A DNA stretch of 64,000 nt from Chitinophagaceae bacterium 26-R-25 (lineage in GTDB: Bacteria > Bacteroidota > Bacteroidia > Chitinophagales > Chitinophagaceae). The notes beneath the pieces were generated by a model. The model saw only the letters and a list, made by a program, of their open reading frames with translations, had not been told where the DNA came from and ran no database searches. The stretch lies in the NCBI GenBank assembly GCA_029906195.1, contig JARWSJ010000002.1:124001-188000 (forward strand), written 5' to 3'. A program made the translations under genes and the position numbers. Below are positions 20,540 through 44,662 of the stretch, one piece after another (within the stretch, counting starts at the first letter, position 1; each line of letters begins with the position of its first letter).

Positions 20540-20625
20540 GAGTTTTGAGTAATAAGTTTTGAGTTCTGAGTTATCAATTTATGAAATTCGATGTCCTACA
20601 ACTCATAACTCAAAACTCATAACTC
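20540..20625. repeat. Word-type inverted repeat (gagttttgagt / actcaaaactc family)
   Basis: Left arm 20540-20575 (gagttttgagtaataagttt words) and right arm 20599-20625 (actcataactcaaaactcat words) between the DUF937-like gene start and the SH3 gene stop. Confidence 0.65.
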
Positions 20626-22369: not shown

Positions 22370-22428
22370 CGATGGTTTTTTGTAATTGACCTTGAAGGTG
22401 TTTGAGTCGTTGCATGGCTGAATGCGAA

Positions 22429-22530
22429 GTTGTTAGTTGATGGTTGTTAGTTGTTAGGCTTTAAGCGCGATATTCCTCAATAGGAATTTTAGTCCCAATG
22501 TCTAACAACTAATAACTAACAACAAACAAC
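22429..22530. repeat. Word-type inverted repeat (gttgttag / ctaacaac family)
   Basis: Left arm 22429-22457 (gttgttagttgatggttgtt words) and right arm 22501-22530 (ctaacaactaataactaaca words) between the barrel gene start and the next upstream gene's stop. Confidence 0.65.
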
Positions 22531-22534
22531 TTTT

Positions 22535-23054: not shown

Positions 23055-23168
23055 CGAATAACTGAATAACTGAATAACTGAATGACTGAATAACTGAATG
23101 TTCCTGTTTGACAAGCATTTTCGCCATTGAACACTCAGTTATTCAGTCATTCAGTTATTCAGTTATTG
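23055..23168. repeat. Word-type inverted repeat (aataactg / cagttatt family)
   Basis: Left arm 23055-23100 is six successive aataactg/aatgactg words. Right arm 23132-23168 is the matching cagttatt/cagtcatt series. About 30 unique bases lie between. It follows the cluster A 3' end and is the clearest example of this family in the window. Confidence 0.75.
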
Positions 23169-23174
23169 AAACGG

Positions 23175-23741
23175 CTATGCTTTTCCTAATCGATTTATTT
23201 TTACGAGTTGAGATAACATATACAAAATGATTCCCCACACAAGCGCGACTAACGACACAACTGTTACCACGAGCGGTATTGGAGCATTGGCCGCGGGCGA
23301 CCAAAGGGTCCTTTGATCAAACTTGTCTTTTACAGTTGTCGGCACGCCCCAGTTTGTGACTTTTGAAGCGAGAAGCTCTCCGGTTTGATCGTTCTCTTCT
23401 ACCTTGGCAAGCACTGTTATATTGCCTTCATGATCACCGGGCATGTCAGTTGGAAAGTCTGCTACTGCTTCGCCATTTTCATCGGTTGTAACCGCATCAC
23501 CCAAAGGGAGTGAGCCGAAACTTTTCTTAATTAAAAACACAACATCTACGCCTTTTAGCGGAGTATGATTTTTTGTAACAACGGCTTTCGCTTGTTTAAC
23601 GCTGTCCTGTTCGCCGAAGGTGAGCGTAATTTGCGCTTCTGCATTTGTGCTATCCTGCGCAGACACACGTTGCGCGGAAAACACAAAGAGACAACAGCAC
23701 AGTGCTAAACTGCGGATGATATTATTATGCTTGAGCTTCAT
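23175..23741 (-). CDS. Membrane-anchored Ig-like/carboxypeptidase-regulatory protein of redox cluster A
   Basis: 188 residues from MKLKHNN at 23741; an earlier in-frame ATG at 23762 is possible. Signal peptide (SLALCCCLFVFSAQRVSAQ), then a beta-rich domain with VVTKNHTPLKGVDVVFLIKK and TTDENGEAVADFPTDMPGD, as in carboxypeptidase-regulatory or bacterial Ig folds. A C-terminal membrane helix follows (IPLVVTVVSLVALVWGIILYML). The start overlaps the end of the NrfD gene by 17 bases, so translation is probably coupled. No haem or metal motif. It may stabilise the membrane complex of cluster A; that is inference from context. Confidence 0.7.
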   Translation of the reverse strand: MKLKHNNIIRSLALCCCLFVFSAQRVSAQDSTNAEAQITLTFGEQDSVKQAKAVVTKNHTPLKGVDVVFLIKKSFGSLPLGDAVTTDENGEAVADFPTDMPGDHEGNITVLAKVEENDQTGELLASKVTNWGVPTTVKDKFDQRTLWSPAANAPIPLVVTVVSLVALVWGIILYMLSQLVKINRLGKA

Positions 23742-25083
23742 ACAAATTCGTTTGTTCATCAATTTGAGGAGATTGCTGCTCTTCTGTCATTTCCCAAATT
23801 GAAATGATAGGAAACAGTCTTACAAAGAAAGTAATAACCAGCAGCGCACCGGCGAGTGATGCCGATGTAATGGCCCATTCTTCCCAGGTTGGCATATAGG
23901 TGTGCCACGACGCAGGAACGTTCTGAATAGGAATGAAAGGGTGAAGAAGGGTAGGTACAACAATCAGGAAACGCTTGAACCATGCGCCAACAACCACCAA
24001 GAGGGAAACAATAAAAACCGGAAGCGGCGCTCTTCCTTTTTTAAACAGCATAACGACTATCGGAACTACCATTCCGAATATCTGCACGCTCCAAAACAGC
24101 GGCGCGTAGTGACCGGTGAACAAGGATTTCAAATGTTCGCCATCTACCGTTTTCATTTTATATCCGGGAACTAAATATTCATTAATGTTGAAATATAGAT
24201 AGACCAATGACAACAGCACCAATAGTTTTGCCATATTATCAAAATGCTTGGTGGTGATGTATTTTTTTAAGTTGTAATGATTTCTCAAAACATATGTAAC
24301 GGCAATTACACCTCCACATCCAGCCTGGAACGCACCCGCCACAAAATAAGGCCCGAAGTTGGAGCTGTCCCAGCCGGCTCTGTAGGTTGTTGCAAACAAC
24401 CATGAAGTAACGGTGTGAATACCCAACGCAAGGGGAACAACAAGCACTGCAAGCACATTGATGCATTTGTGTATAAGAGCGTATTGTTGCGAAGTACCTC
24501 TCCAGTTTAAGGCGAGGAAAGTGTAAAACCATTTTTTGAATTTTAAAGATGCAGGAGTCAGGTCGCGACAAATAGCAATGTCCGGAAGTAACGGAATGTA
24601 AAGTAACAGACTGCTTACAACAAGATAAGTGGTGATAACAATAACATCCCAAAGAATAGGCGATTGAAGTCTTCCAAATGCGAACAGATGCCAGAATCTT
24701 TCCGGGCGTCCCATGTCCACTATGATGATGATAGCGGCGAAGAATATTGCAGCCACAGCAATTATTTCAGAGATGCGCACAAGTGGTGTGCGCCATCTTA
24801 CGTTGGCCAGCTTAAGAATGGCACTTACGAGCGAACCAACAAGGCTTATGGCAACAAAAAAAACGAAGTTGGATATGTATATTCCCCACGAAGTAAAATC
24901 GCGCATATCGGTTACAACAAGGCCCTTCTGCAATTGGCGGATGTAGGCATAAAAGCCGATAACAACTATTACCAGCAGCACGCCCACCCATAACTTACCC
25001 GAAGCGTTGAATTTTTTTGGCATCAAATCCGTGAGCAGTTGATTCGATTTATCCAACTTTATTTTTACAGGTTCCATTTGCAA
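23725..25083 (-). CDS. nrfD: NrfD/PsrC-type quinone-interacting membrane subunit
   Basis: 452 residues with about 8-10 transmembrane helices. Family-like stretches include SWGIYISNFVFFVAISLVGSLVSAIL, DMGRPERFWHLFAFGRLQSPILWDVIV, WLFATTYRAGWDSSNFGPYFVAGAF and YAPLFWSVQIFGMVVPIVVM. NrfD/PsrC/DsrP proteins anchor a ferredoxin subunit to the membrane and exchange electrons with the quinone pool. The gene follows the Tat ferredoxin gene (57 bases) and overlaps the next gene, so these form one operon. No molybdopterin catalytic gene is present in the cluster, so the pair resembles DsrOP or ACIII-type modules more than a complete reductase. Confidence 0.88.
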   Translation of the reverse strand: MQMEPVKIKLDKSNQLLTDLMPKKFNASGKLWVGVLLVIVVIGFYAYIRQLQKGLVVTDMRDFTSWGIYISNFVFFVAISLVGSLVSAILKLANVRWRTPLVRISEIIAVAAIFFAAIIIIVDMGRPERFWHLFAFGRLQSPILWDVIVITTYLVVSSLLLYIPLLPDIAICRDLTPASLKFKKWFYTFLALNWRGTSQQYALIHKCINVLAVLVVPLALGIHTVTSWLFATTYRAGWDSSNFGPYFVAGAFQAGCGGVIAVTYVLRNHYNLKKYITTKHFDNMAKLLVLLSLVYLYFNINEYLVPGYKMKTVDGEHLKSLFTGHYAPLFWSVQIFGMVVPIVVMLFKKGRAPLPVFIVSLLVVVGAWFKRFLIVVPTLLHPFIPIQNVPASWHTYMPTWEEWAITSASLAGALLVITFFVRLFPIISIWEMTEEQQSPQIDEQTNLYEAQA

Positions 25084-25105
25084 TTAATAATTAATAATTA
25101 ATAAG
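25081..25105. repeat. Short tandem aattaata repeat
   Basis: Three and a half attaata/aattaata words directly upstream of the NrfD start codon, in the gap after the ferredoxin gene. No inverted partner. Confidence 0.5.
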
Positions 25106-25140
25106 TTCGGCGCTGTTTACCACTTCGATCATCAAGCTGT

Positions 25141-26097
25141 TTAATGGCCTGATTCATGGGTGGTTTGTCCTTCTGCTTCTGTTGGTACTTCGGCGTCTTT
25201 AAATGGAAATTGTCTGTTTACAGGAGGCAGATAATAAACCCTTGGTTTGGTTCCCAGATCTTCGAGGTACCTGTAACCAGACTTGTCTTTTAATAACTGG
25301 CTCAGTCGAACAGTTTCGTCGCCGTTGCTTACCACATCTTCTACTTCGTCGCCAAAATAGAATACGCCGTTGGGGCAGGCTTGCACACAATCCGGTAGTT
25401 CATCTTTGGCTGTGTTGGTCGGACAGAAATCGCATTTCTCTACTGTGCCTGAAACGTGTGTGCTGCATGCTGCGTGTGGCTTTATTTCATTCATTTGGGT
25501 AATGTTCAACTGGTACTCGGTGTCCCAGTTAAAAACCCGTGCAGAATATGGACAGGCTACCATGCAAAACCTACAACCGATGCAGCGTTCATTATCGATG
25601 CCTACAATGCCATCCGTCAATTTAAAAGTGGCGCCCACTGGGCACACTTTTACACACGGCGGATTGTCGCAGTGAAAACATGGAGTAGGCATCCAGTAAG
25701 GAGCAGCCTTATCTGAATCCTGCATTTTGTTGATCTTGATGTAGCTGCGATTGTCTGGCAAATAGTGCATCTTTGAGCATGCGCTCTTGCATTTACCTGC
25801 ATTCCTGCACCTGGAGAGATCAATCACCATTACAAACTTTTTGCCGGGCACACCCTCACGCACATTGTGTTTGGAAAGGAGTGAGTCCGGTATTGCAGGA
25901 TTGATCATTGAAGAATCTACTTCCACTATTTTGCCATCAGGAGAAAGCAGCTTCACCTTATCACCTGTTTTGGGCTTTGTTTCTTTGCACGCCGTTTCCA
26001 CAAGTCCCAGACCCGTCGCTACAGCGGCAGTAGCCACAAAACCTTTTCGCAGGAAATCTCTACGCGAATCATTCGATTCGTTATTATTTGAATCCAT
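25141..26097 (-). CDS. Tat-exported 4Fe-4S ferredoxin subunit (DsrO/NrfC-like)
   Basis: 318 residues from MDSNNNES at 26097. Twin-arginine signal SRRDFLRKGFVATAAVA, so the folded protein is exported with its clusters. A PDGKIVEVDSS segment precedes the ferredoxin domain. Four Cys groups are visible: C97-x2-A100-x2-C103-x3-C107, then CFHCDNPPCVKVCP, then CIGCRFCMVACP, then CSTHVSG...CDFC...CVQACP. The first group lacks its second Cys (Ala100, codon GCA), so it may hold a 3Fe-4S cluster or have lost it. It should pass electrons between the NrfD subunit and the cytochromes of the same operon on the periplasmic side. Confidence 0.88.
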   Translation of the reverse strand: MDSNNNESNDSRRDFLRKGFVATAAVATGLGLVETACKETKPKTGDKVKLLSPDGKIVEVDSSMINPAIPDSLLSKHNVREGVPGKKFVMVIDLSRCRNAGKCKSACSKMHYLPDNRSYIKINKMQDSDKAAPYWMPTPCFHCDNPPCVKVCPVGATFKLTDGIVGIDNERCIGCRFCMVACPYSARVFNWDTEYQLNITQMNEIKPHAACSTHVSGTVEKCDFCPTNTAKDELPDCVQACPNGVFYFGDEVEDVVSNGDETVRLSQLLKDKSGYRYLEDLGTKPRVYYLPPVNRQFPFKDAEVPTEAEGQTTHESGH

Positions 26098-26103
26098 GGA
26101 ATA

Positions 26104-26241
26104 CAAATTGAAAGTTGAAAGTTGAGAATGAAATTGAAAATTGAAAATTGAAAGTTGAAAATGATTGTTCTATAATCTTAATTGGTCTTTTCGACCGCCA
26201 ACAACCCTCATTTTCAACTTTCAATTTTCAATTTTCAACTA
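26104..26241. repeat. Word-type inverted repeat (gaaaattgaaagttg family)
   Basis: Left arm 26104-26163 (aaattgaaagttgaaagttg and similar) and right arm 26209-26241 (attttcaactttcaattttc and similar), filling the gap between the cytochrome c stop and the ferredoxin start, inside the probable operon. The same words recur at 53.6 kb. Confidence 0.7.
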
Positions 26242-26649
26242 CTTCTTAAAAGTGCGTATGTAGTTTACGAGACTCCATATTTCATCTTCATCAGAAATTT
26301 TCTTTTTAAACGCTGGCATGTCGTCTCTTCCTTCGCTTATTTTATAATACAGTGCTCCGTCTGATTGACCTTGTGTTGCTGCAGCTGAAAAATCGCCCGG
26401 ATGTGTAGTTAATTTCGCAGCTTTTGATCCATCTCCCTTACCCATTTTGCCATGACATGAAGCGCAGTTCTTCGCCCATGAAGCTTTGCCTGTATTAATA
26501 GAGGCAGCATCAGATTTAATAGGGTTGGCCATCTTCGCGTTCTTTTCAGGAACGTTCCATGGCTTAGGTTGTTGTTTTGAAAAAGTAAAACTTACAACCA
26601 CGATAAATGTTGTCATCAGTAAAAGGACACTTAGTGTTTTTGTTTTCAT
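26239..26649 (-). CDS. Monohaem cytochrome c of redox cluster A
   Basis: 136 residues from MKTKTLSV at 26649. Exported by an N-terminal signal (LLLMTTFIVVVSFTF). Haem motif C62-A-S-C65-H66 in WAKNCASCHGKMGKGDG; axial Met111 likely in GRDDMPAFKKKISDEDEIWSLVNYIRTF. This is a class I cytochrome c6/cbb3-CcoP-like fold. It is located between the DUF5777 barrel and the Tat ferredoxin genes, so it probably carries electrons for the NrfD complex in the periplasm. Length is normal. Confidence 0.88.
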   Translation of the reverse strand: MKTKTLSVLLLMTTFIVVVSFTFSKQQPKPWNVPEKNAKMANPIKSDAASINTGKASWAKNCASCHGKMGKGDGSKAAKLTTHPGDFSAAATQGQSDGALYYKISEGRDDMPAFKKKISDEDEIWSLVNYIRTFKK

Positions 26650-26687
26650 AAACTTGTTTTGAGGTGTATTGATAAAGAATATTGTTT

Positions 26688-27647
26688 CTACCAGTTCCAA
26701 AGCCGCGTCATGTTAAAGCCGATCAACCACTGCCCATCCTTGTAGTCATTGTTGTTATAGTAATTATTTCTCGAGGGTGTTATATAACGATAGTTGCCCA
26801 CCAATACCTGGAACGTGTGTCCTGTGGTGTTGATTTCAAGCCCAGCGGAAAGGTTTGGATTTGGGTTGTTTGTCAAATGTTTTGTGATTGGCTGGTCATA
26901 GTTCAGCAGCAGGTTAAGTGTGTTGTTCAATTTTACTTTTCCTGAAAAAGCGATCGCGAAATGATCGTGTTTCATTTCTTTGCCGAGCACGCTTTTGCCA
27001 TCTGCTGTGGTATCTCCCCCGTAATAGCCTTGCACCACGTTCACGTGTGTAAGGCTGGGTGCCACCTGTATGGAAAATCTATCGCCGAACTTCCTGGCAA
27101 TAATTATTTGGTTAAAGAACATCAGGCGATCACTTCCATGGGGGTAAAGACCGCCGGTAGGATCTGATCTTGTATCAACAGCCATGTTGCCGTAGTAGGT
27201 TACACTCACGGGAATTTTATCATCTTTTGTTTGCTTGAGCCCCGCATATTTTACATATCCCTCCCAGGTTAGGTTGTACTCTGTTAGTGAAAGTCCGACC
27301 ATCAAATCTTCTCTTGGCACATAATCAGCTCCAATGCGGATATTGATGCCACCAAAAAGACCAAACAGACTTTGGTAGCCACCATCAATAGTTCCGAAAC
27401 GGTGCATGAAATCAAGCTGGAATGACCCTTTGGTGGGCACCATTACACTCTGATTATCCAATAGCCAGATGTTTTCAAATGTATTTGGCACCGGCTTGCT
27501 TTTTTTGGGAGCTGCGGGGGCTTCTGTCGCTGCCTCTTTAACTCCAGTTGAGTCTTGCGCATTCAAAAAATTCAGGCATCCCAGCAAGCAAAACAATACT
27601 AAAGCAGCTTTAGGTGACCGGTTATATAGTGTTGTGTGTGCTTTCAT
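26688..27647 (-). CDS. DUF5777 family beta-barrel protein (cluster A)
   Basis: 319 residues. Signal peptide (ALVLFCLLGCLNFLNAQ), then an Ala/Pro/Lys-rich linker, then a barrel with many amphipathic strands. It shows the family pattern: QSVMVPTKGSFQLDFMHRFGTIDGGY, LFGGINIRIGADYVPREDLMVGLSLTEYN, VKYAGLKQTKDD, PVSVTYYGNMAVDTR, IIIARKFGDRFSIQVAPSLTHVNVV and a final GQWLIGFNMTRLWNW. It is paralogous to the barrel at 42-43 kb, with the same motif order. It is predicted to lie in the outer membrane. In both loci it sits next to a haem lipoprotein and a YceI protein. Function undescribed as far as I know. Confidence 0.85.
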   Translation of the reverse strand: MKAHTTLYNRSPKAALVLFCLLGCLNFLNAQDSTGVKEAATEAPAAPKKSKPVPNTFENIWLLDNQSVMVPTKGSFQLDFMHRFGTIDGGYQSLFGLFGGINIRIGADYVPREDLMVGLSLTEYNLTWEGYVKYAGLKQTKDDKIPVSVTYYGNMAVDTRSDPTGGLYPHGSDRLMFFNQIIIARKFGDRFSIQVAPSLTHVNVVQGYYGGDTTADGKSVLGKEMKHDHFAIAFSGKVKLNNTLNLLLNYDQPITKHLTNNPNPNLSAGLEINTTGHTFQVLVGNYRYITPSRNNYYNNNDYKDGQWLIGFNMTRLWNW

Positions 27648-27670
27648 TTGTGCGTTTTTTTAGGATGTAG

Positions 27671-28051
27671 TTAGTTATTAGGAGCTCCTATTTTGATCCA
27701 GTCCAGCACCATTTGAATCTGAACCTGTGGCAGCTTACCTGTTGGAGGCATCAGGCCACTGTTTATCTCTTTATACAAAATACTTTCTGTGGGAATGGTT
27801 GTATTTACAAAGCCTCCCGACATCAGTGCATTGTAGGACTTATCTGCCGTTAAGGTTGGATTATGCCCCCCATCGCCATGACATCCGGGTGTGGCACAAC
27901 TTGTGTTAAAAATGGGCTGGAGGTCGTTACTGAAGCTTACGTTTTGTGGCGGTGCGTTAGGATCGGGCGGAGTGATAACATCGTAGTAACAGCCTGTTGT
28001 CAATGCCATTATTAACATTGCCATCACCCAATATATTTTTCTGACTTTCAT
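27671..28051 (-). CDS. Haem-binding lipoprotein with CX4CH motif (cluster A)
   Basis: 126 residues. Lipobox ALTTGC (Cys21). A cytochrome-like domain contains C52-ATPG-C57-H58, a CX4CH haem motif in place of the usual CX2CH. It then has SGLMPPTGKLPQVQIQMVLDWIKIGAPNN, where the Met is a likely axial ligand. The closing pattern MPxx...L....I..WI..GAxNN is shared with the cluster B haem lipoprotein. It is predicted to be a membrane-tethered periplasmic electron carrier. Gaps to the neighbouring DUF5777 and YceI genes are short, which supports one operon. Confidence 0.82.
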   Translation of the reverse strand: MKVRKIYWVMAMLIMALTTGCYYDVITPPDPNAPPQNVSFSNDLQPIFNTSCATPGCHGDGGHNPTLTADKSYNALMSGGFVNTTIPTESILYKEINSGLMPPTGKLPQVQIQMVLDWIKIGAPNN

Positions 28052-28109
28052 AATTGATAATTTGCGTTAGTCATTAAATGGTGTTTAATATGGGTTTTAG
28101 CGTCAATAC

Positions 28110-28778
28110 TTATTCGGTGTACTTAATTGCCGCATTACAGATAATGTCGACGTTATCGCCAATACTGGTTGATACAATGCCGAAATCAGAAATGGCCAGG
28201 ATGGAAAAATCCAGGCTGAATCCGTATTCGTCCTGTGTTCCCAATTCTGCTTTTCCATCGTAGCTTAGCTTGGCAGTAATTTCTTTGGTCACACCGTGAA
28301 ATTTAAAATCGGCAGTTATGATGTAGCCTTTATCTGTCGTGCTGAAAACTGCCTTCTTGCTGGTGATTACCGCCATGTTACTATCTGCTGCACCAGCAGT
28401 CGGTCCTGTTCCAAATGTTGCAAGCAAACAACCCCCGTCTCTTGCTGGTTCACTGGTGTTTACTGAGTTTAACCATACATCCGCTGTGAAATAGATGCTG
28501 TCTGGGTTGTCTTCCTTAAAATAGAATCGGGTGACATGGAAGGTATTGAAACGTCCGGTTAAGCCTGAAATTTGACCTAAGTACTTGGTTGACCAGTTAA
28601 CGTTGGAGTGTGCTTTGTCAAAGGACTCTAACTTAACGCGCTGGGTACCCCGGGTGATAGGACCTCCGCTGCCTCCACTTGGCACAATTTCATCCTTATG
28701 TGTACAGGAAATAACGTAAAGCAAGATGGTTAATATAAGCGTAACGCTTATTGCCGAGATTTTTACTTTTAGGTTCAT
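28110..28778 (-). CDS. YceI-like lipoprotein (cluster A)
   Basis: 222 residues from MNLKVKIS at 28778; lipobox LYVISC (Cys25). The domain has the YceI lipocalin-like pattern: ESFDKAHSNVNWSTKYLGQISGLTGRFNTF, then TADVWLNSVNTSEPARDGGC, then ADFKFHGVTKEITAKLSYDGKAE, ending GDNVDIICNAAIKY. YceI proteins bind long isoprenoid chains such as quinones in the periplasm. It is the second gene of cluster A. The cluster B locus carries a shorter, soluble relative, so the pairing of YceI with DUF5777 and a haem lipoprotein is repeated. Confidence 0.87.
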   Translation of the reverse strand: MNLKVKISAISVTLILTILLYVISCTHKDEIVPSGGSGGPITRGTQRVKLESFDKAHSNVNWSTKYLGQISGLTGRFNTFHVTRFYFKEDNPDSIYFTADVWLNSVNTSEPARDGGCLLATFGTGPTAGAADSNMAVITSKKAVFSTTDKGYIITADFKFHGVTKEITAKLSYDGKAELGTQDEYGFSLDFSILAISDFGIVSTSIGDNVDIICNAAIKYTE

Positions 28779-28827
28779 GGCGGTCAATTTGGATATGAAC
28801 AATTTTAGTTAAACTCTTAAAAGCAGG

Positions 28828-29070
28828 TCATTTTTTGTGTGCATCATTCATCCAGTCGAAGACTTCTTTTTCCGTGGCTTTTTTTGCGACGGTACTTTGC
28901 TCAAGGACTGACTTATTTACCATTACTAGCTTGCCGTCCGGCATCATCATTGGCACCAGGGAAGTATCCTCCGACGTTAGATGATGCAACAGCGGAGCGC
29001 CAACGCCTACGGTGGCACCCGCGACAATGACCGACTTGATAAACTTTCGTCGATTTTTTGAAGTAGACAT
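28828..29070 (-). CDS. Stand-alone Tat-signal peptide related to the ferredoxin N-terminus (cluster A)
   Basis: 80 residues. Tat-like signal NRRKFIKSVIVAGATVGVGAP, then MMMPDGKLVMVNKSVL and a helix KKATEKEVFDWMNDAHKK. The arrangement signal-then-PDGKxxxVxxS is the same as in the first 65 residues of the cluster A ferredoxin (RRDFLRKG..., SPDGKIVEVDSS), but there are no Cys residues and no ferredoxin domain follows. It is the first gene of the cluster, 49 bases before the YceI gene. Function unknown; it may be an exported chaperone or an assembly factor for the complex. Confidence 0.65.
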   Translation of the reverse strand: MSTSKNRRKFIKSVIVAGATVGVGAPLLHHLTSEDTSLVPMMMPDGKLVMVNKSVLEQSTVAKKATEKEVFDWMNDAHKK

Positions 29071-32655: not shown

Positions 32656-32760
32656 TGATTGAATAACTGAATTATTGAATTTTTAAGTAAAAAATCAAAA
32701 ATCAAAAGTCAAAAATTTGTGACCCGTTTTGAATTTTGAATTTTTACTTTTTACTTTTTC
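32656..32760. repeat. Compound word-type repeat inside the efflux operon
   Basis: The left part 32656-32715 mixes aataactg words with aaaaatcaaaagtcaaaaat words. The right arm 32727-32760 has ttttgaattttgaattttta words. It separates the adaptor and pump genes. Confidence 0.6.
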
Positions 32761-37913: not shown

Positions 37914-38027
37914 GGAACGCAGATCTTCATGATTCTGATGATTTAGTAAGATTTTTTTATCCAGTCAATCACGTGACTTGATTTTTTTTAATCATAATTA
38001 TCATCACAATCATGAGAATCTGCGTTC
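37914..38027. repeat. MITE-like inverted-repeat element, copy 1
   Basis: The arms start ggaacgcagatcttcatgat and end atcatgagaatctgcgttc. They are about 40-bp imperfect inverted repeats around 35 variable bases. Copy 2 in the same orientation lies at 38617-38735. The two copies flank the YcxB-like gene. Confidence 0.75.
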
Positions 38028-38616: not shown

Positions 38617-38735
38617 GAACGCAGATCTTCATGATTCTTATGATTTATTAGGATTTTGTATCGAGTTGGTCAGCGTTGACTTTGTGTTTTCAAAAATCAT
38701 AATTATCATAACGATCATGAGAATCTGCGTTCTCT
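38617..38735. repeat. MITE-like inverted-repeat element, copy 2
   Basis: Same arms as copy 1 (ggaacgcagatcttcatgat... / ...atcatgagaatctgcgttc), different inner 40 bases. Its right edge abuts the stop codon of the ABC ATPase gene. Confidence 0.75.
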
Positions 38736-42091: not shown

Positions 42092-43006
42092 TTACCAAGA
42101 CACCTTATTCTTTGCCTTCTTCGTGATATTAAAGCTTCGTGAAATATTGAAACCGAAATAAATTGCTCCGTCGCTCCATTTACCCAATGTTCTTCCAATG
42201 TATTGTGTTTCCACCATTCCCTGTGAATTGGTAAATACCAGTTGGAACACGTGGCCACCGGTTTCTATATCCCAGCCAAGAGAAAATGAATTGTAGACGT
42301 CCATGGAATTTACCTGGTTAGGCAGGAGATAGTTATATTCCGCGGTAATGGCCATTCTTTTGGTAAACTTCACGCGACCACCGGCAGAGATTGCAAACTC
42401 GTTGTTTTTATCTTCCGCTGTTGGAACAATGTTATAATGAAGAAAAGTAGGAGCCAATTGAAAAGAGATATTGCGATTGAATTTTCTCGCGATCAGCAAT
42501 TGCGCGGTGTATGCAGTGCGATAGGTTGCATCTAAATATGGTTTTTCATCATAGTGCTGTGTGAAGTGATTGATGGACCCTAAGAGGCTTACAGAAACAG
42601 GCATGTTCACTGCACCGGTTGACTGTCGTAATAATTTATATTTCACATAGCCATCAAACATCTTTTCATAAGAACTTCTGCCGATGCCAATTGCAAGTCT
42701 TGACGAAATGCCGTAATCAAGACCTAAGCGCAATGTCGCATTGTCCAATCCCCATAAATTGTAAGCGCCGCTGTTAAGCTGGCCAAAACGGTGCTGTATC
42801 ACAAAGTTCAACACACCTGCTCCGGGGGCTTCAACAGTTTGCATATTGACGATGTGCAACGCTTTGAATGTACCGGTAGTGTAATTGACACCAGTGCTGG
42901 CCTGCATAGAATCATTCAATGATTTTAAAAGAGAAGAATCCTGTGCATGCAATTCCCCGATTGTTATGATGATGATCAGCGAGCAAAAAATTTTCTTTAG
43001 AGACAT
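42092..43006 (-). CDS. DUF5777 family beta-barrel protein (cluster B)
   Basis: 304 residues. Signal peptide (KIFCSLIIIITIGELHAQ). The family motif order matches the cluster A barrel: QTVEAPGAGVLNFVIQHRFGQLNSGAY, LGLDYGISSRLAIGIGRSSYE, VKYKLLRQSTGAVNMPVSVSLLGSINH, LLIARKFNRNISFQLAPTFLHYNIV, GGHVFQLVFTNSQGM and YFGFNISRSF. Predicted outer-membrane barrel. Together with the YceI and haem-lipoprotein genes upstream it repeats the module of cluster A. Confidence 0.83.
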   Translation of the reverse strand: MSLKKIFCSLIIIITIGELHAQDSSLLKSLNDSMQASTGVNYTTGTFKALHIVNMQTVEAPGAGVLNFVIQHRFGQLNSGAYNLWGLDNATLRLGLDYGISSRLAIGIGRSSYEKMFDGYVKYKLLRQSTGAVNMPVSVSLLGSINHFTQHYDEKPYLDATYRTAYTAQLLIARKFNRNISFQLAPTFLHYNIVPTAEDKNNEFAISAGGRVKFTKRMAITAEYNYLLPNQVNSMDVYNSFSLGWDIETGGHVFQLVFTNSQGMVETQYIGRTLGKWSDGAIYFGFNISRSFNITKKAKNKVSW

Positions 43007-43019
43007 GGAAGTTTGATTT

Positions 43020-43156
43020 ATGGTGAATGGTGAATCGTCAATCGTGAATGTGAAACCCTAAAAAGCGTGATGCATTGTGAACGCAAATCGTCAATAGTGA
43101 ATGTAAAATATAGTGCTCGCATCTACATTCACCATTGACCATTCACGTTTCACGAC
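43020..43156. repeat. Word-type inverted repeat (gtgaat / attcac family)
   Basis: Left part 43020-43103 has two blocks of gtgaatcgtcaatcgtgaat-type words; right arm 43125-43156 has acattcaccattgaccattc words. It fills the gap between the DUF5777 start and the YceI stop. Confidence 0.65.
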
Positions 43157-43157
43157 C

Positions 43158-43697
43158 TCACTTTGCGCTGCAGTCCAGCTTTACAACCACGTTCATCTCT
43201 TTCGCTATTTTATCACGCACAAGAGAAGGAATGGTAATGTTGTAATCCTCAGGTTTCATTTTGAATTCGGCTTGTCCTACTATTCTTCCCTGTTGCATTT
43301 GTAACGTAGCCGGTATTTCTACGGGACGGGTTACATTGTGCAGGGTCATGTTACCCTTGATGGTTACTTTGTAAATGCTGTCGCTTCCCGGTGGTACATT
43401 GATGGTGTATGTTCCGGTAAAGCTCGCTTTAGGATATTTGTCACTCTCCACATAATTTTCGTTGAAGTGTTCCTGCATTAATTCTTTTGTGAAAATGAAC
43501 CCTTTCAGCAGCAGTGTAATGGCCATGTTTTTGTTGCCGGCATCAATGATGGCATATACTTGTTTGTTTTCTGCTCTGATATCTTCCAATGGTGTTTTTC
43601 CATAAAAGCCTATAAAGCCGGAACGTGTCATATACTGCTGGCTATGTGCCCAATAGCAGTTTATAAGAAGGATAAGGAAGATGCTAATCTTTTTCAT
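43158..43697 (-). CDS. YceI family periplasmic protein (cluster B)
   Basis: 179 residues with a cleavable signal peptide (SIFLILLINCYWAHSQ). YceI pattern: SGFIGFYGKTPLEDIRAENKQVYAIIDAGNKNMAI, LLKGFIFTKELMQEHFNENYVESDKYPKASFTGTY, then VTIKGNMTLHNVTRPVEIPATLQ and EFKMKPEDYNITIPSLVRDKIAKEMNV. Probable isoprenoid/quinone-binding lipocalin-like protein. It is shorter than the cluster A relative and not a lipoprotein. It lies between the DUF5777 barrel and the haem lipoprotein genes. Confidence 0.87.
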   Translation of the reverse strand: MKKISIFLILLINCYWAHSQQYMTRSGFIGFYGKTPLEDIRAENKQVYAIIDAGNKNMAITLLLKGFIFTKELMQEHFNENYVESDKYPKASFTGTYTINVPPGSDSIYKVTIKGNMTLHNVTRPVEIPATLQMQQGRIVGQAEFKMKPEDYNITIPSLVRDKIAKEMNVVVKLDCSAK

Positions 43698-43845
43698 CTG
43701 TATCTTTTTATTTTATTTTGGTCAGATGCCCGCCTGAGTGACACTAGTCGGGCAGGGAATTTGCATGAAATAATCATCTCTTTTTGCGGCAAGAATCTCG
43801 TCACGCTCATTTCATCGTCACTAATTTTTCAATTGTTCTTAATCG

Positions 43846-44226
43846 CTAGTTATTCTTTGCTCCCTGGTTAACCCATGCAGTTATCTTATTGATTGAACAA
43901 TCATCCAGCTTGGGTCTTCCATAAGGCATTGCCGGAAATCCGGGTGCATGTGTAACAACGCCCACCAGGTGGCCCGCATCTGCATGAAATTTAAGATTGC
44001 TGTAGGTGCTTAGGTCAATACCCCCGCTGCCGGCGGTGCTACCTGCGCCGTGGCATTCATAACAATTATTGGAAAGTATGTTCACGATATCTGTGCTATA
44101 CTTTACCGCTGTTGTGTCACACGTGATGCCATCGCTCAGGCTTTCTTCATTAGCTTTGGAACAGGAAATTGCCATACATGTTATTACTGCTGCAACAACT
44201 AATGTGGATGAAATGTACTTACGCAT
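43846..44226 (-). CDS. Haem-binding lipoprotein, CX2CH (cluster B)
   Basis: 126 residues from MRKYISST at 44226; an earlier ATG at 44250 is also possible and would directly follow the OB-fold gene stop. Lipobox MAISC (Cys22). A normal haem motif CYECH occurs in LSNNCYECHGAGSTAGSGGI, then HAPGFPAMPYGRPKLDDCSINKITAWVNQGAKNN, which shares its closing pattern with the cluster A lipoprotein. Predicted membrane-tethered cytochrome c. Confidence 0.82.
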   Translation of the reverse strand: MRKYISSTLVVAAVITCMAISCSKANEESLSDGITCDTTAVKYSTDIVNILSNNCYECHGAGSTAGSGGIDLSTYSNLKFHADAGHLVGVVTHAPGFPAMPYGRPKLDDCSINKITAWVNQGAKNN

Positions 44227-44251
44227 AGAGTGCTTCTTTTTTCGTTTCATT

Positions 44252-44662
44252 TTATTCAATAACACAATCCACCACATTTACATCGAGCAGAAAACCTGTG
44301 CATCTGCCTTTAATGGTTATGAGTGAATTGACTTCAGGAACTTTTAGTGAGTGTGCATTGTAAAAGCTGCAATTGATACCTCCCGGAGCCTTTTCGCCTG
44401 CGTTAAGTAAAATGCTTATGGTAGTGCTGTCTTTCTGAACGGCGTTCACAGTGCCCTTGATGCTTATTACTTTTCCTGTGTAATTTTTATCTGCTTCTGT
44501 TTCGTTTGAGAGATAAGCGTTGAATAATTCAGCTGCACTGATGTTTGCTGAAGGTGCAATATCTCTGGCATCTGTGTGTGGTTTTTGATAGGCATAGTAG
44601 GCCCAGGCCGCGACGCATATCAACACAATGCCCGCTGCGAGAAAAAGCACTTTCTTTCGCAT
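44252..44662 (-). CDS. Membrane-anchored OB-fold (tRNA_anti-like) protein
   Basis: 136 residues. One N-terminal membrane helix (VLFLAAGIVLICVAAWAYYAY), then a helix (AAELFNAYLSNETEADKNYTGKVISIKG) and OB-fold strands (TISILLNAGEKAPGGINCSFYNAH, NSLITIKGRCTGFLLDVNVVDC). This is the pattern of the tRNA_anti-like/OB-fold family found in Bacteroidota. It sits next to the haem lipoprotein, as the probable first gene of cluster B. Nucleic-acid or oligosaccharide binding is not established. Confidence 0.8.
   Translation of the reverse strand: MRKKVLFLAAGIVLICVAAWAYYAYQKPHTDARDIAPSANISAAELFNAYLSNETEADKNYTGKVISIKGTVNAVQKDSTTISILLNAGEKAPGGINCSFYNAHSLKVPEVNSLITIKGRCTGFLLDVNVVDCVIE

Follow-up and report, generated by a model that had tools for sequence, protein, structure and literature searches.

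Soil, sludge, and sediment harbour many Bacteroidota, which are usually regarded as polymer degraders with an aerobic or fermentative metabolism. In the sections used here, a survey of the NrfD family (PMC8076601) groups ActC and ActF together with DsrP and archaeal DmsC; for Bacteroidetes it reports ActC/ActF and two NhcC, and its taxonomic section names no group like the NrfD protein considered below. ActC and ActF belong to alternative complex III (ACIII), a quinol:cytochrome c reductase, and the relevant passages of PMC5928083 describe Asp169 of R. marinus ActC as a quinol-pocket residue and ActF as lacking the quinol-site residues. QrcCD, as given in the corresponding part of PMC13059093, reduces menaquinone using electrons of a periplasmic cytochrome. 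Here, we analyzed an eight-gene operon of Chitinophagaceae bacterium 26-R-25 (genome size 6.5 Mb), located in a stretch of 64,000 nt (contig JARWSJ010000002.1, positions 124,001-188,000) that is referred to as the window in its full length. The operon type is real and conserved and, as far as the open-access searches made here show, undescribed: judged on the level of abstracts, no description of it was recognized there and the term “DUF5777”, naming the family of its barrel protein, was not found, in agreement with a preliminary description of the locus that did not know it as a described system. The parts themselves are of known kinds (a quinone module of the NrfCD type, a monohaem cytochrome, and lipoproteins of the outer membrane) and the chemistry is not new.

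The eight open reading frames (ORFs), already reported in this order and on one strand by the preliminary description, were confirmed on the minus strand at 23175..29070, with intergenic gaps of -38 to 132 bp as measured between the longest frames. Five of them are slightly shorter with ATG starts (YceI 28778, CYT 26649, FER 26097, NRFD 25077, and IG 23741). In the direction of transcription, the genes are:

28828..29070, minus strand: TATP, 80-aa peptide of the twin-arginine translocation (Tat) type (NRRKF); no family matched in a Pfam search; homologues in 27 of 40 loci
28110..28778, minus strand: YceI lipoprotein in an exchangeable slot, 222 aa from ATG; PF04264, 54.3 bits (cut-off 23.7)
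27671..28051, minus strand: HLP, haem lipoprotein with a single CX4CH haem motif; Cytochrome_CBB3, 24.1 bits (below the cut-off of 27)
26688..27647, minus strand: BAR, DUF5777 outer-membrane barrel with 12 predicted strands; PF19089, 246.8 bits (cut-off 23.1)
26239..26649, minus strand: CYT, periplasmic monohaem cytochrome c (CXXCH); Cytochrome_CBB3, 49.6 bits (cut-off 27)
25141..26097, minus strand: FER, Tat-exported four-cluster Fe-S protein, DsrO/NrfC/ActB-like; Fer4_11, 64.4 bits (cut-off 26.2)
23725..25077, minus strand: NRFD, membrane protein of the NrfD family; Asp146 and Arg371 as in the quinol site of ActC; PF03916, 115.6 bits (cut-off 25.8)
23175..23741, minus strand: IG, N-terminal hydrophobic helix (signal peptide), beta-sandwich, and C-terminal membrane helix; Big_1, 23.8 bits (below the cut-off of 34.9)

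For a set of a quinol-site NrfD, a four-cluster Fe-S protein, a monohaem cytochrome, HLP, and a barrel with swappable haem partners, an outward quinol-oxidizing branch is the simplest account. NRFD would oxidize menaquinol at the periplasmic face, and the Fe-S clusters of FER would take over the electrons; TATP and IG are putative small membrane-anchored partners. FER would then reduce the monohaem CYT, and CYT would pass electrons on to outer-membrane haem lipoproteins. The DUF5777 barrel would hold the latter and act as a platform on which the lipoprotein can be exchanged (YceI in the window; elsewhere the haem-b-like EB_dh, hexahaem c, or other haem proteins). The whole would work like a stripped ACIII with its own outer-membrane outlet, used as an accessory branch, probably under scarce oxygen. 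For this complete chain, i.e., a respiratory electron-transfer operon of Bacteroidota whose quinol-oxidizing branch ends at the outer membrane, we consider the chances to be balanced; electron direction, outer-membrane transfer, surface exposure, oxygen-linked regulation, and terminal acceptor are all points that we infer. That the acceptor is extracellular appears possible, at slightly less than balanced chances.

Conservation and distribution of the unit

Related loci were first collected as 40 stretches of at most 20 kb, picked by FER similarity, and 80 named loci were added later (L031-L150 were selected by similarity to FER). Prior to the adjacency, 8-kb neighbourhood, residue, tree, and operator counts, seven loci (L071, L072, L096, L105, L106, L126, and L128) were removed, six of which share contigs with retained loci; L126 shares one only with the short and uncounted L025, so its removal was unneeded. 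All seven are still present in the slot survey, the haem/Cys motif counts, and the operator-pattern discovery. The added 80 loci are titled as Bacteroidota except L137, a short contig of a metagenome-assembled genome that bears the label Comamonas; its FER is 55% and its NRFD 57% like the window protein.

Within the first 40 loci, the FER, NRFD, IG, and CYT families were found in every one, followed by the barrel (33), TATP (27), HLP (26), YceI (18), and EB_dh (12). Conservation of the gene order, proposed as a check by the preliminary description, was borne out for the core: in 103 of 113 loci, FER, NRFD, and IG lie side by side. Six of the ten remaining loci end at most 1.7 kb after FER (L086, L092, L094, L112, L117, and L131); in the other four, FER is separated from NRFD by an additional frame (L053), NRFD is likewise separated from IG (L111), IG is not recognized (L103), or NRFD is missing (L143). 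Among 76 long-flanked loci (6 kb or more on either side), NRFD (75), IG (74), CYT (74), barrel (64), HLP (54), and TATP (44) were located within 8 kb of FER. Tandem duplications of the FER-NRFD-IG core also occur, e.g., in L087, L095, L104, L107, L116, and L121, the latter with three copies.

On the family level, FER relatives at E<1e-90 are present in 53 of 195 Chitinophagaceae genomes, i.e., in about a quarter, with a FER 96% identical to that of the window in a genome of the same genus. In the remaining family genomes, most matches fall into the Fe-S part of ~1000-aa frames, a length that resembles ActB, and six of the 195 have no match. A phylum-wide draw of 148 genomes yielded seven with a match at E<1e-120 from five families, one of them with an in-frame stop, and 28 further genomes with weaker matches (4e-54 to 3e-43). 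In view of these few strong matches, the module is patchy and accessory rather than universal. At another site, the genome of the window also encodes a complete ACIII set (L152; ActD PF11821, 204.9 bits), behind which the genes for cytochrome oxidase subunits II and I are located; the module is thus an extra branch added to an aerobic chain.

Inner-membrane core, outer-membrane genes, and regulation

A profile of NRFD searched against the PDB (E up to 0.01) retrieved eight sequences, all of them ActC or ActF of ACIII, with ActC (6f0k_C) as best match at 2.7e-80 and ActF at 1.4e-14. Based on an NRFD/ActC alignment of 120 module NRFDs and residue roles taken from PMC5928083, the equivalents of ActC Asp169 and Trp168 are Asp and Trp in all 120, the gate Arg395 is kept in 119, and Glu326 is Glu in 113; the ActF of the same genome lacks all four of these retained residues. 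PF14589, used as a further NrfD model, was uninformative, giving zero matches in the genome and in its controls. FER shows the motifs of four clusters; of the 16 Cys that usually bind these it has 15, the second one in motif I being lost. Across 132 FER proteins, this position is occupied by Ala (71), Leu (41), Val (7), Glu (4), or Cys (7) and is unmatched in two, and owing to this loss one cluster may be of the [3Fe-4S] type. Among solved structures, FER is closest to 6cz7_B (4.9e-37; a 4Fe-4S ferredoxin entry, presumably the arsenate reductase small subunit), 2vpw_B (9.3e-35; an NrfC entry, presumably PsrB), and 6f0k_B, the Fe-S half of ActB (1.3e-28). In our judgement, the FER-NRFD core is very probably quinone-reactive.

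TATP resembles the N-terminus of FER itself, with the segment PDGKLV common to both, and its homologues precede the ferredoxin gene in relatives; it is possibly a small anchored subunit. The structure model of IG consists of a single beta-sandwich and a C-terminal helix (predicted local distance difference test score, pLDDT, 83.6), for which Foldseek returned no informative fold neighbour (best E 9e-4, a glycopeptidase).

With regard to the periplasm and outer membrane, CXXCH is present in 116 of 116 CYT homologues, and HLP homologues carry CX4CH (71 of 85), CX2CH (13), or neither (1). An AlphaFold2 model of BAR built with 51 sequences gave a confident 12-strand barrel (pLDDT 87.6) with FapF, NanC, COG4313, and OmpG as Foldseek neighbours (best E 1.6e-7, query template-modelling score <0.5), so that DUF5777 is, by this model, an outer-membrane channel fold; a search against PDB sequences with E up to 1 retrieved no relative. 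Surface lipoproteins of the lipoprotein export signal (LES) type carry acidic residues soon after the lipobox Cys. The YceI of the window reads CTHKDE from this Cys, and Asp or Glu was counted, with no background control, at +4 in 55% and +5 in 65% of 31 YceI lipoboxes (40 proteins); for HLP, position +4 was acidic in 53% of 68 lipoboxes (77 proteins).

The place next to HLP and the barrel is filled by different proteins, namely YceI as in the window, the haem-b-like EB_dh lipoprotein (PF09459, 69.3 bits; cut-off 33.3), EB_dh with an additional cytochrome c domain, a multihaem lipoprotein, or haem lipoproteins of the families C10/C11, the latter often divergent and with the barrel further away. 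Of the 12 members of the multihaem type, 11 carry six haem motifs; this lipoprotein matches Cytochrome_C7 above cut-off, and its MtrC-like match is below cut-off. At least one of the YceI, EB_dh, multihaem, and C10/C11 types was found in 64 of the 76 long-flanked loci. Mapped on a quick FER tree with SH-aLRT (Shimodaira-Hasegawa-like approximate likelihood-ratio test) support only and 42 of 126 rows without slot label, the label requires at least 23 changes, with a minimum possible of three and a mean of 41.7 after shuffling; well-supported branches alone force fewer (EB_dh 12, YceI 9, C10/C11 5, and multihaem 5). Accordingly placed on the tree, the slot label appears clustered yet repeatedly exchanged. 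As unrelated haem proteins occupy the same place, this exchange is, from comparison of the loci, the strongest pointer to a redox function at the outer membrane.

Regarding regulation, the palindrome TRTGA-N6-TCAYA of Crp/Fnr type is enriched about tenfold before module genes of relatives. Exact copies number 25 in the 39.3 kb that precede module genes (in 23 of 99 loci) compared with five in the 78.7 kb that precede non-module genes of these loci and 0.13 on average in resampled module sequence; allowing one mismatch, the numbers are 78 (50 loci), 34 (24 loci), and 6.9, respectively. Five permuted half-sites occurred 3-11 times upstream of module genes and 3-14 times in the control. The pattern was discovered in the same data, its weight therefore resting on control promoters and resampling. 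Proteins of the Crp/Fnr type are encoded 0.8-7.8 kb from FER in some loci, either with a Cys-rich N-terminus (L049, L081, L086, L111, L122, and L125) or as response-regulator/Crp hybrids of ~351 aa (L039, L047, L109, L112, L127, L134, and L147); Pfam was run on L047, L049, L081, L086, and L134, and the other calls are based on clustering with these. A histidine kinase (Pfam) adjoins the hybrid in L047.

A promoter and terminator scan of the window operon was not used (promoter-like sites 15 vs 14.7 in shuffled sequence; terminator-like sites 20 vs 7.7, mostly inside genes). Long intergenic inverted repeats with short tandem words differing per site were observed at 22427-22532, 23057-23171, 26105-26238 (between CYT and FER), 20547-20625, 32685-32756, and 43023-43149, as well as a near-identical pair of a dispersed hairpin-forming repeat at 37915-38027 and 38617-38732.

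Weighing the outward chain against alternatives

Several observations at the inner membrane, in the surrounding genes, and at the outer membrane speak against the outward chain as drawn above. Starting with the NRFD pocket, the position of ActC His139 holds Asp in 91 and Cys in 22 of the 120 module NRFDs, Asp253 is replaced by Leu/Ile in 119, His97 by Leu in 80, and Glu394 by Lys in 110, and the NRFD of the window shows all of these changes (His139 to Asp, Asp253 to Leu, His97 to Leu, and Glu394 to Lys). Since these other pocket and channel residues of ActC are replaced, the module may deviate from ACIII in electron direction and in proton coupling. Electrons could flow inward, from an extracellular or outer-membrane donor via HLP and CYT to FER-NRFD, which would reduce menaquinone as in QrcABCD. 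The Asp at the His139 position would suit this reading, as would a weak QrcD match (76 bits vs a cut-off of 570) and the precedent of QrcCD, for which the part of PMC13059093 used here gives menaquinone reduction from a periplasmic cytochrome. The nearest solved relative is, however, the quinol-oxidizing ActC, and the Crp/Fnr-type operators of relatives would better fit an anaerobic acceptor branch, making inward flow quite unlikely. The operators carry a reservation of their own: upstream of the window operon, TRTGA-N6-TCAYA is missing with up to two mismatches, and a one-mismatch operator is located 39 bases before TATP in the same-genus locus L032. Because the window promoter is without a site, Crp/Fnr-type control would be a property of part of the group and is at most hypothetical for the window.

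A second question concerns a catalytic partner, for which the preliminary description had noted no gene in the operon. This holds for the eight genes of the window operon and, as far as tested, for relatives. Among 110 same-strand proteins in strict operon context in relatives (104 families; one listed protein, L032:13328-13891, was left out), Crp/Fnr regulators were the commonest families (five members), and no molybdopterin family was found in the 25 commonest families nor in 20 of them that were scanned one by one. With ActB-type proteins set aside, PF00384 is represented in 15 of 29 family genomes with the module and in 31 of 69 without it (p=0.66), 14 of the 29 having none; in this tally of 98 genomes, weak matches inside ActB-length frames were assigned to ACIII and all others to Mo enzymes, although some of the latter, ~900 aa long, are possibly subunits of complex I and a single one, in G043, is a fragment. 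The phylogenetic profile, suggested beforehand as a way to trace a partner elsewhere in the genome, thus gave no association with Mo enzymes, and dependence on a molybdoenzyme was rejected. The window genome encodes three PF00384 proteins, one of them on the same contig at a distance of ~1.3 Mb.

The module could nevertheless be an ordinary respiratory reductase or dehydrogenase with an unrecognized catalytic protein, in which the exchangeable lipoprotein (EB_dh, multihaem, or C10) acts on the substrate and the slot follows the substrate. The variety of slot proteins would agree with this, and on plasmid p1 of Flammeovirga kamogawensis a DsrO/DsrP-like FER-NrfD pair of 29.9% identity adjoins napDA and a cytochrome c3 gene, so that distant cousins, judged by gene linkage, appear to serve an enzyme. 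In this respect, the expectation that relatives lack a linked catalytic subunit stands for the close relatives and fails for this distant pair. On the other side, scanned slot proteins match no known catalytic subunit, the Mo-enzyme association and the molybdopterin neighbours are absent as described, EB_dh makes up the haem-b gamma part in enzymes of this kind, and YceI is not known to catalyze a reaction. We consider this reading improbable.

At the outer membrane, finally, 12 of the 76 long-flanked loci lack a barrel nearby and 12 a slot protein, and 87 of the 98 family genomes encode DUF5777, including 58 of the 69 without module. The window genome itself contains two further YceI/haem-lipoprotein/DUF5777 sets without NrfD (window 42092-44662 and L151:5614-9080); such sets imply that barrel function need not depend on NRFD. 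The first of them includes an OB-fold protein and lies downstream of a gene for an extracytoplasmic function (ECF) sigma factor, the second is found on contig C4 together with C10/C11-type haem lipoproteins. Furthermore, YceI is not known as a redox protein, so that with YceI in the slot a single outer-membrane haem remains in the window operon, and known porin-cytochrome barrels are much larger than 12 strands and enclose a multihaem cytochrome. The conduit from inner to outer membrane suggested by the preliminary description remains the best reading, strengthened by hexahaem and EB_dh proteins in the YceI position and weakened by the wide occurrence of the barrel in genomes devoid of the module.

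Alternatively, FER-NRFD-CYT could be a quinol:cytochrome c reductase feeding a periplasmic N2O reductase, peroxidase, or oxidase at low oxygen, with YceI, HLP, and the barrel fulfilling a separate, co-regulated envelope function such as uptake of lipids or small molecules. The core without nearby barrel and the widespread DUF5777 without core are in line with this division, and so is NosZ, which is commoner in family genomes with the module (21 of 29 vs 30 of 69; p=0.014 with phylogeny uncontrolled and partial NosZ of G043, G059, and G078 scored as present), in one case (G027) with FER (C1:2153889-2154779) ~6 kb from nosZ (C1:2160580). Eight of the 29 module genomes were nevertheless scored without NosZ, and the frequent replacement by haem proteins of the gene beside HLP and the barrel is left unexplained, which renders this reading rather unlikely; the NosZ association in itself weakly fits a low-oxygen life.

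We therefore retain the outward chain as preferred reading. Its most specific form, i.e., a Bacteroidota-specific outward route of a minimal complex-III-derived quinol dehydrogenase, a small outer-membrane barrel platform, and an interchangeable cartridge at its exposed end (haem-b-like EB_dh, hexahaem c, or CX4CH haem proteins, or YceI in the window, maybe presenting a lipid-soluble quinone as outermost carrier), with Crp/Fnr-type control, is doubtful. If the outward chain holds true, roughly one in four of the sampled family genomes would possess an accessory branch from quinol to the outer membrane, a respiratory flexibility that has been overlooked. FER-NrfD-Ig provides a simple marker, making this branch testable in cultured strains.

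Comparison with known systems

The resemblance to DsrO/DsrP pointed out in the preliminary description holds insofar as DsrO (175.9 bits) and DsrP (138.2 bits) are the best NCBIfam models for FER and NRFD, yet both scores fall below the cut-offs of 200 and 350 and the solved-structure match of NRFD is ActC. DsrM, DsrK, and DsrJ are absent from the window operon, no profile search for these having been made in relatives, and no dissimilatory DsrA over cut-off was found in the genome (38.9 vs 392.85 bits); membership in DsrMKJOP was rejected on these scores. QrcABCD likewise combines an Fe-S and NrfD pair that, according to the part of PMC13059093 used here, exchanges electrons between periplasmic cytochrome and menaquinone, but FER reaches 121.5 bits of the 400 required for QrcC and NRFD remains as far below the QrcD cut-off as stated above, and QrcA and QrcB are missing from the operon. 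These values place the operon outside QrcABCD.

Lacking a molybdopterin subunit, the window operon also falls outside the complex iron-sulfur molybdoenzyme (CISM) family. The NapDA system of the Flammeovirga plasmid (L165) shares the distant FER-NrfD pair beside a cytochrome; it differs by its Mo catalytic subunit and by an annotation that shows no Ig, HLP, barrel, or YceI. Conduits of the MtrCAB type would work alike in terms of quinol oxidation at the inner membrane, periplasmic haem, and a barrel with outer haem protein, and the multihaem slot proteins of relatives give weak MtrC-like matches. In contrast, BAR has 12 predicted strands and no sequence match in the PDB, and only a monohaem lipoprotein stands beside it in the window. 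With this strand number and no multihaem protein in the operon, it was not assigned to this type.

ACIII is approached most closely by NRFD, with its ActC match, quinol-site Asp, and gate Arg, and by FER, which is similar to ActB in its Fe-S half; CYT has a weak similarity to the ActE-like frame of the genome (25% identity, 33.9 bits). The operon differs from ACIII by the absence of the multihaem ActA, the Mo-like half of ActB, ActD, and ActF, and by the outer-membrane genes attached to the module. The missing ligand Cys belongs to motif III in ActB and to motif I in FER, the motif III of which is complete. An assignment of the operon as ACIII was rejected, the fused Mo-like/Fe-S ActB, ActA, ActD, and ActF being absent from it and a separate set being encoded in L152. 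If the outward chain holds true, the module would be an ACIII-like quinol module minus the Mo-like domain and would help to ask what ActC and an Fe-S chain do alone.

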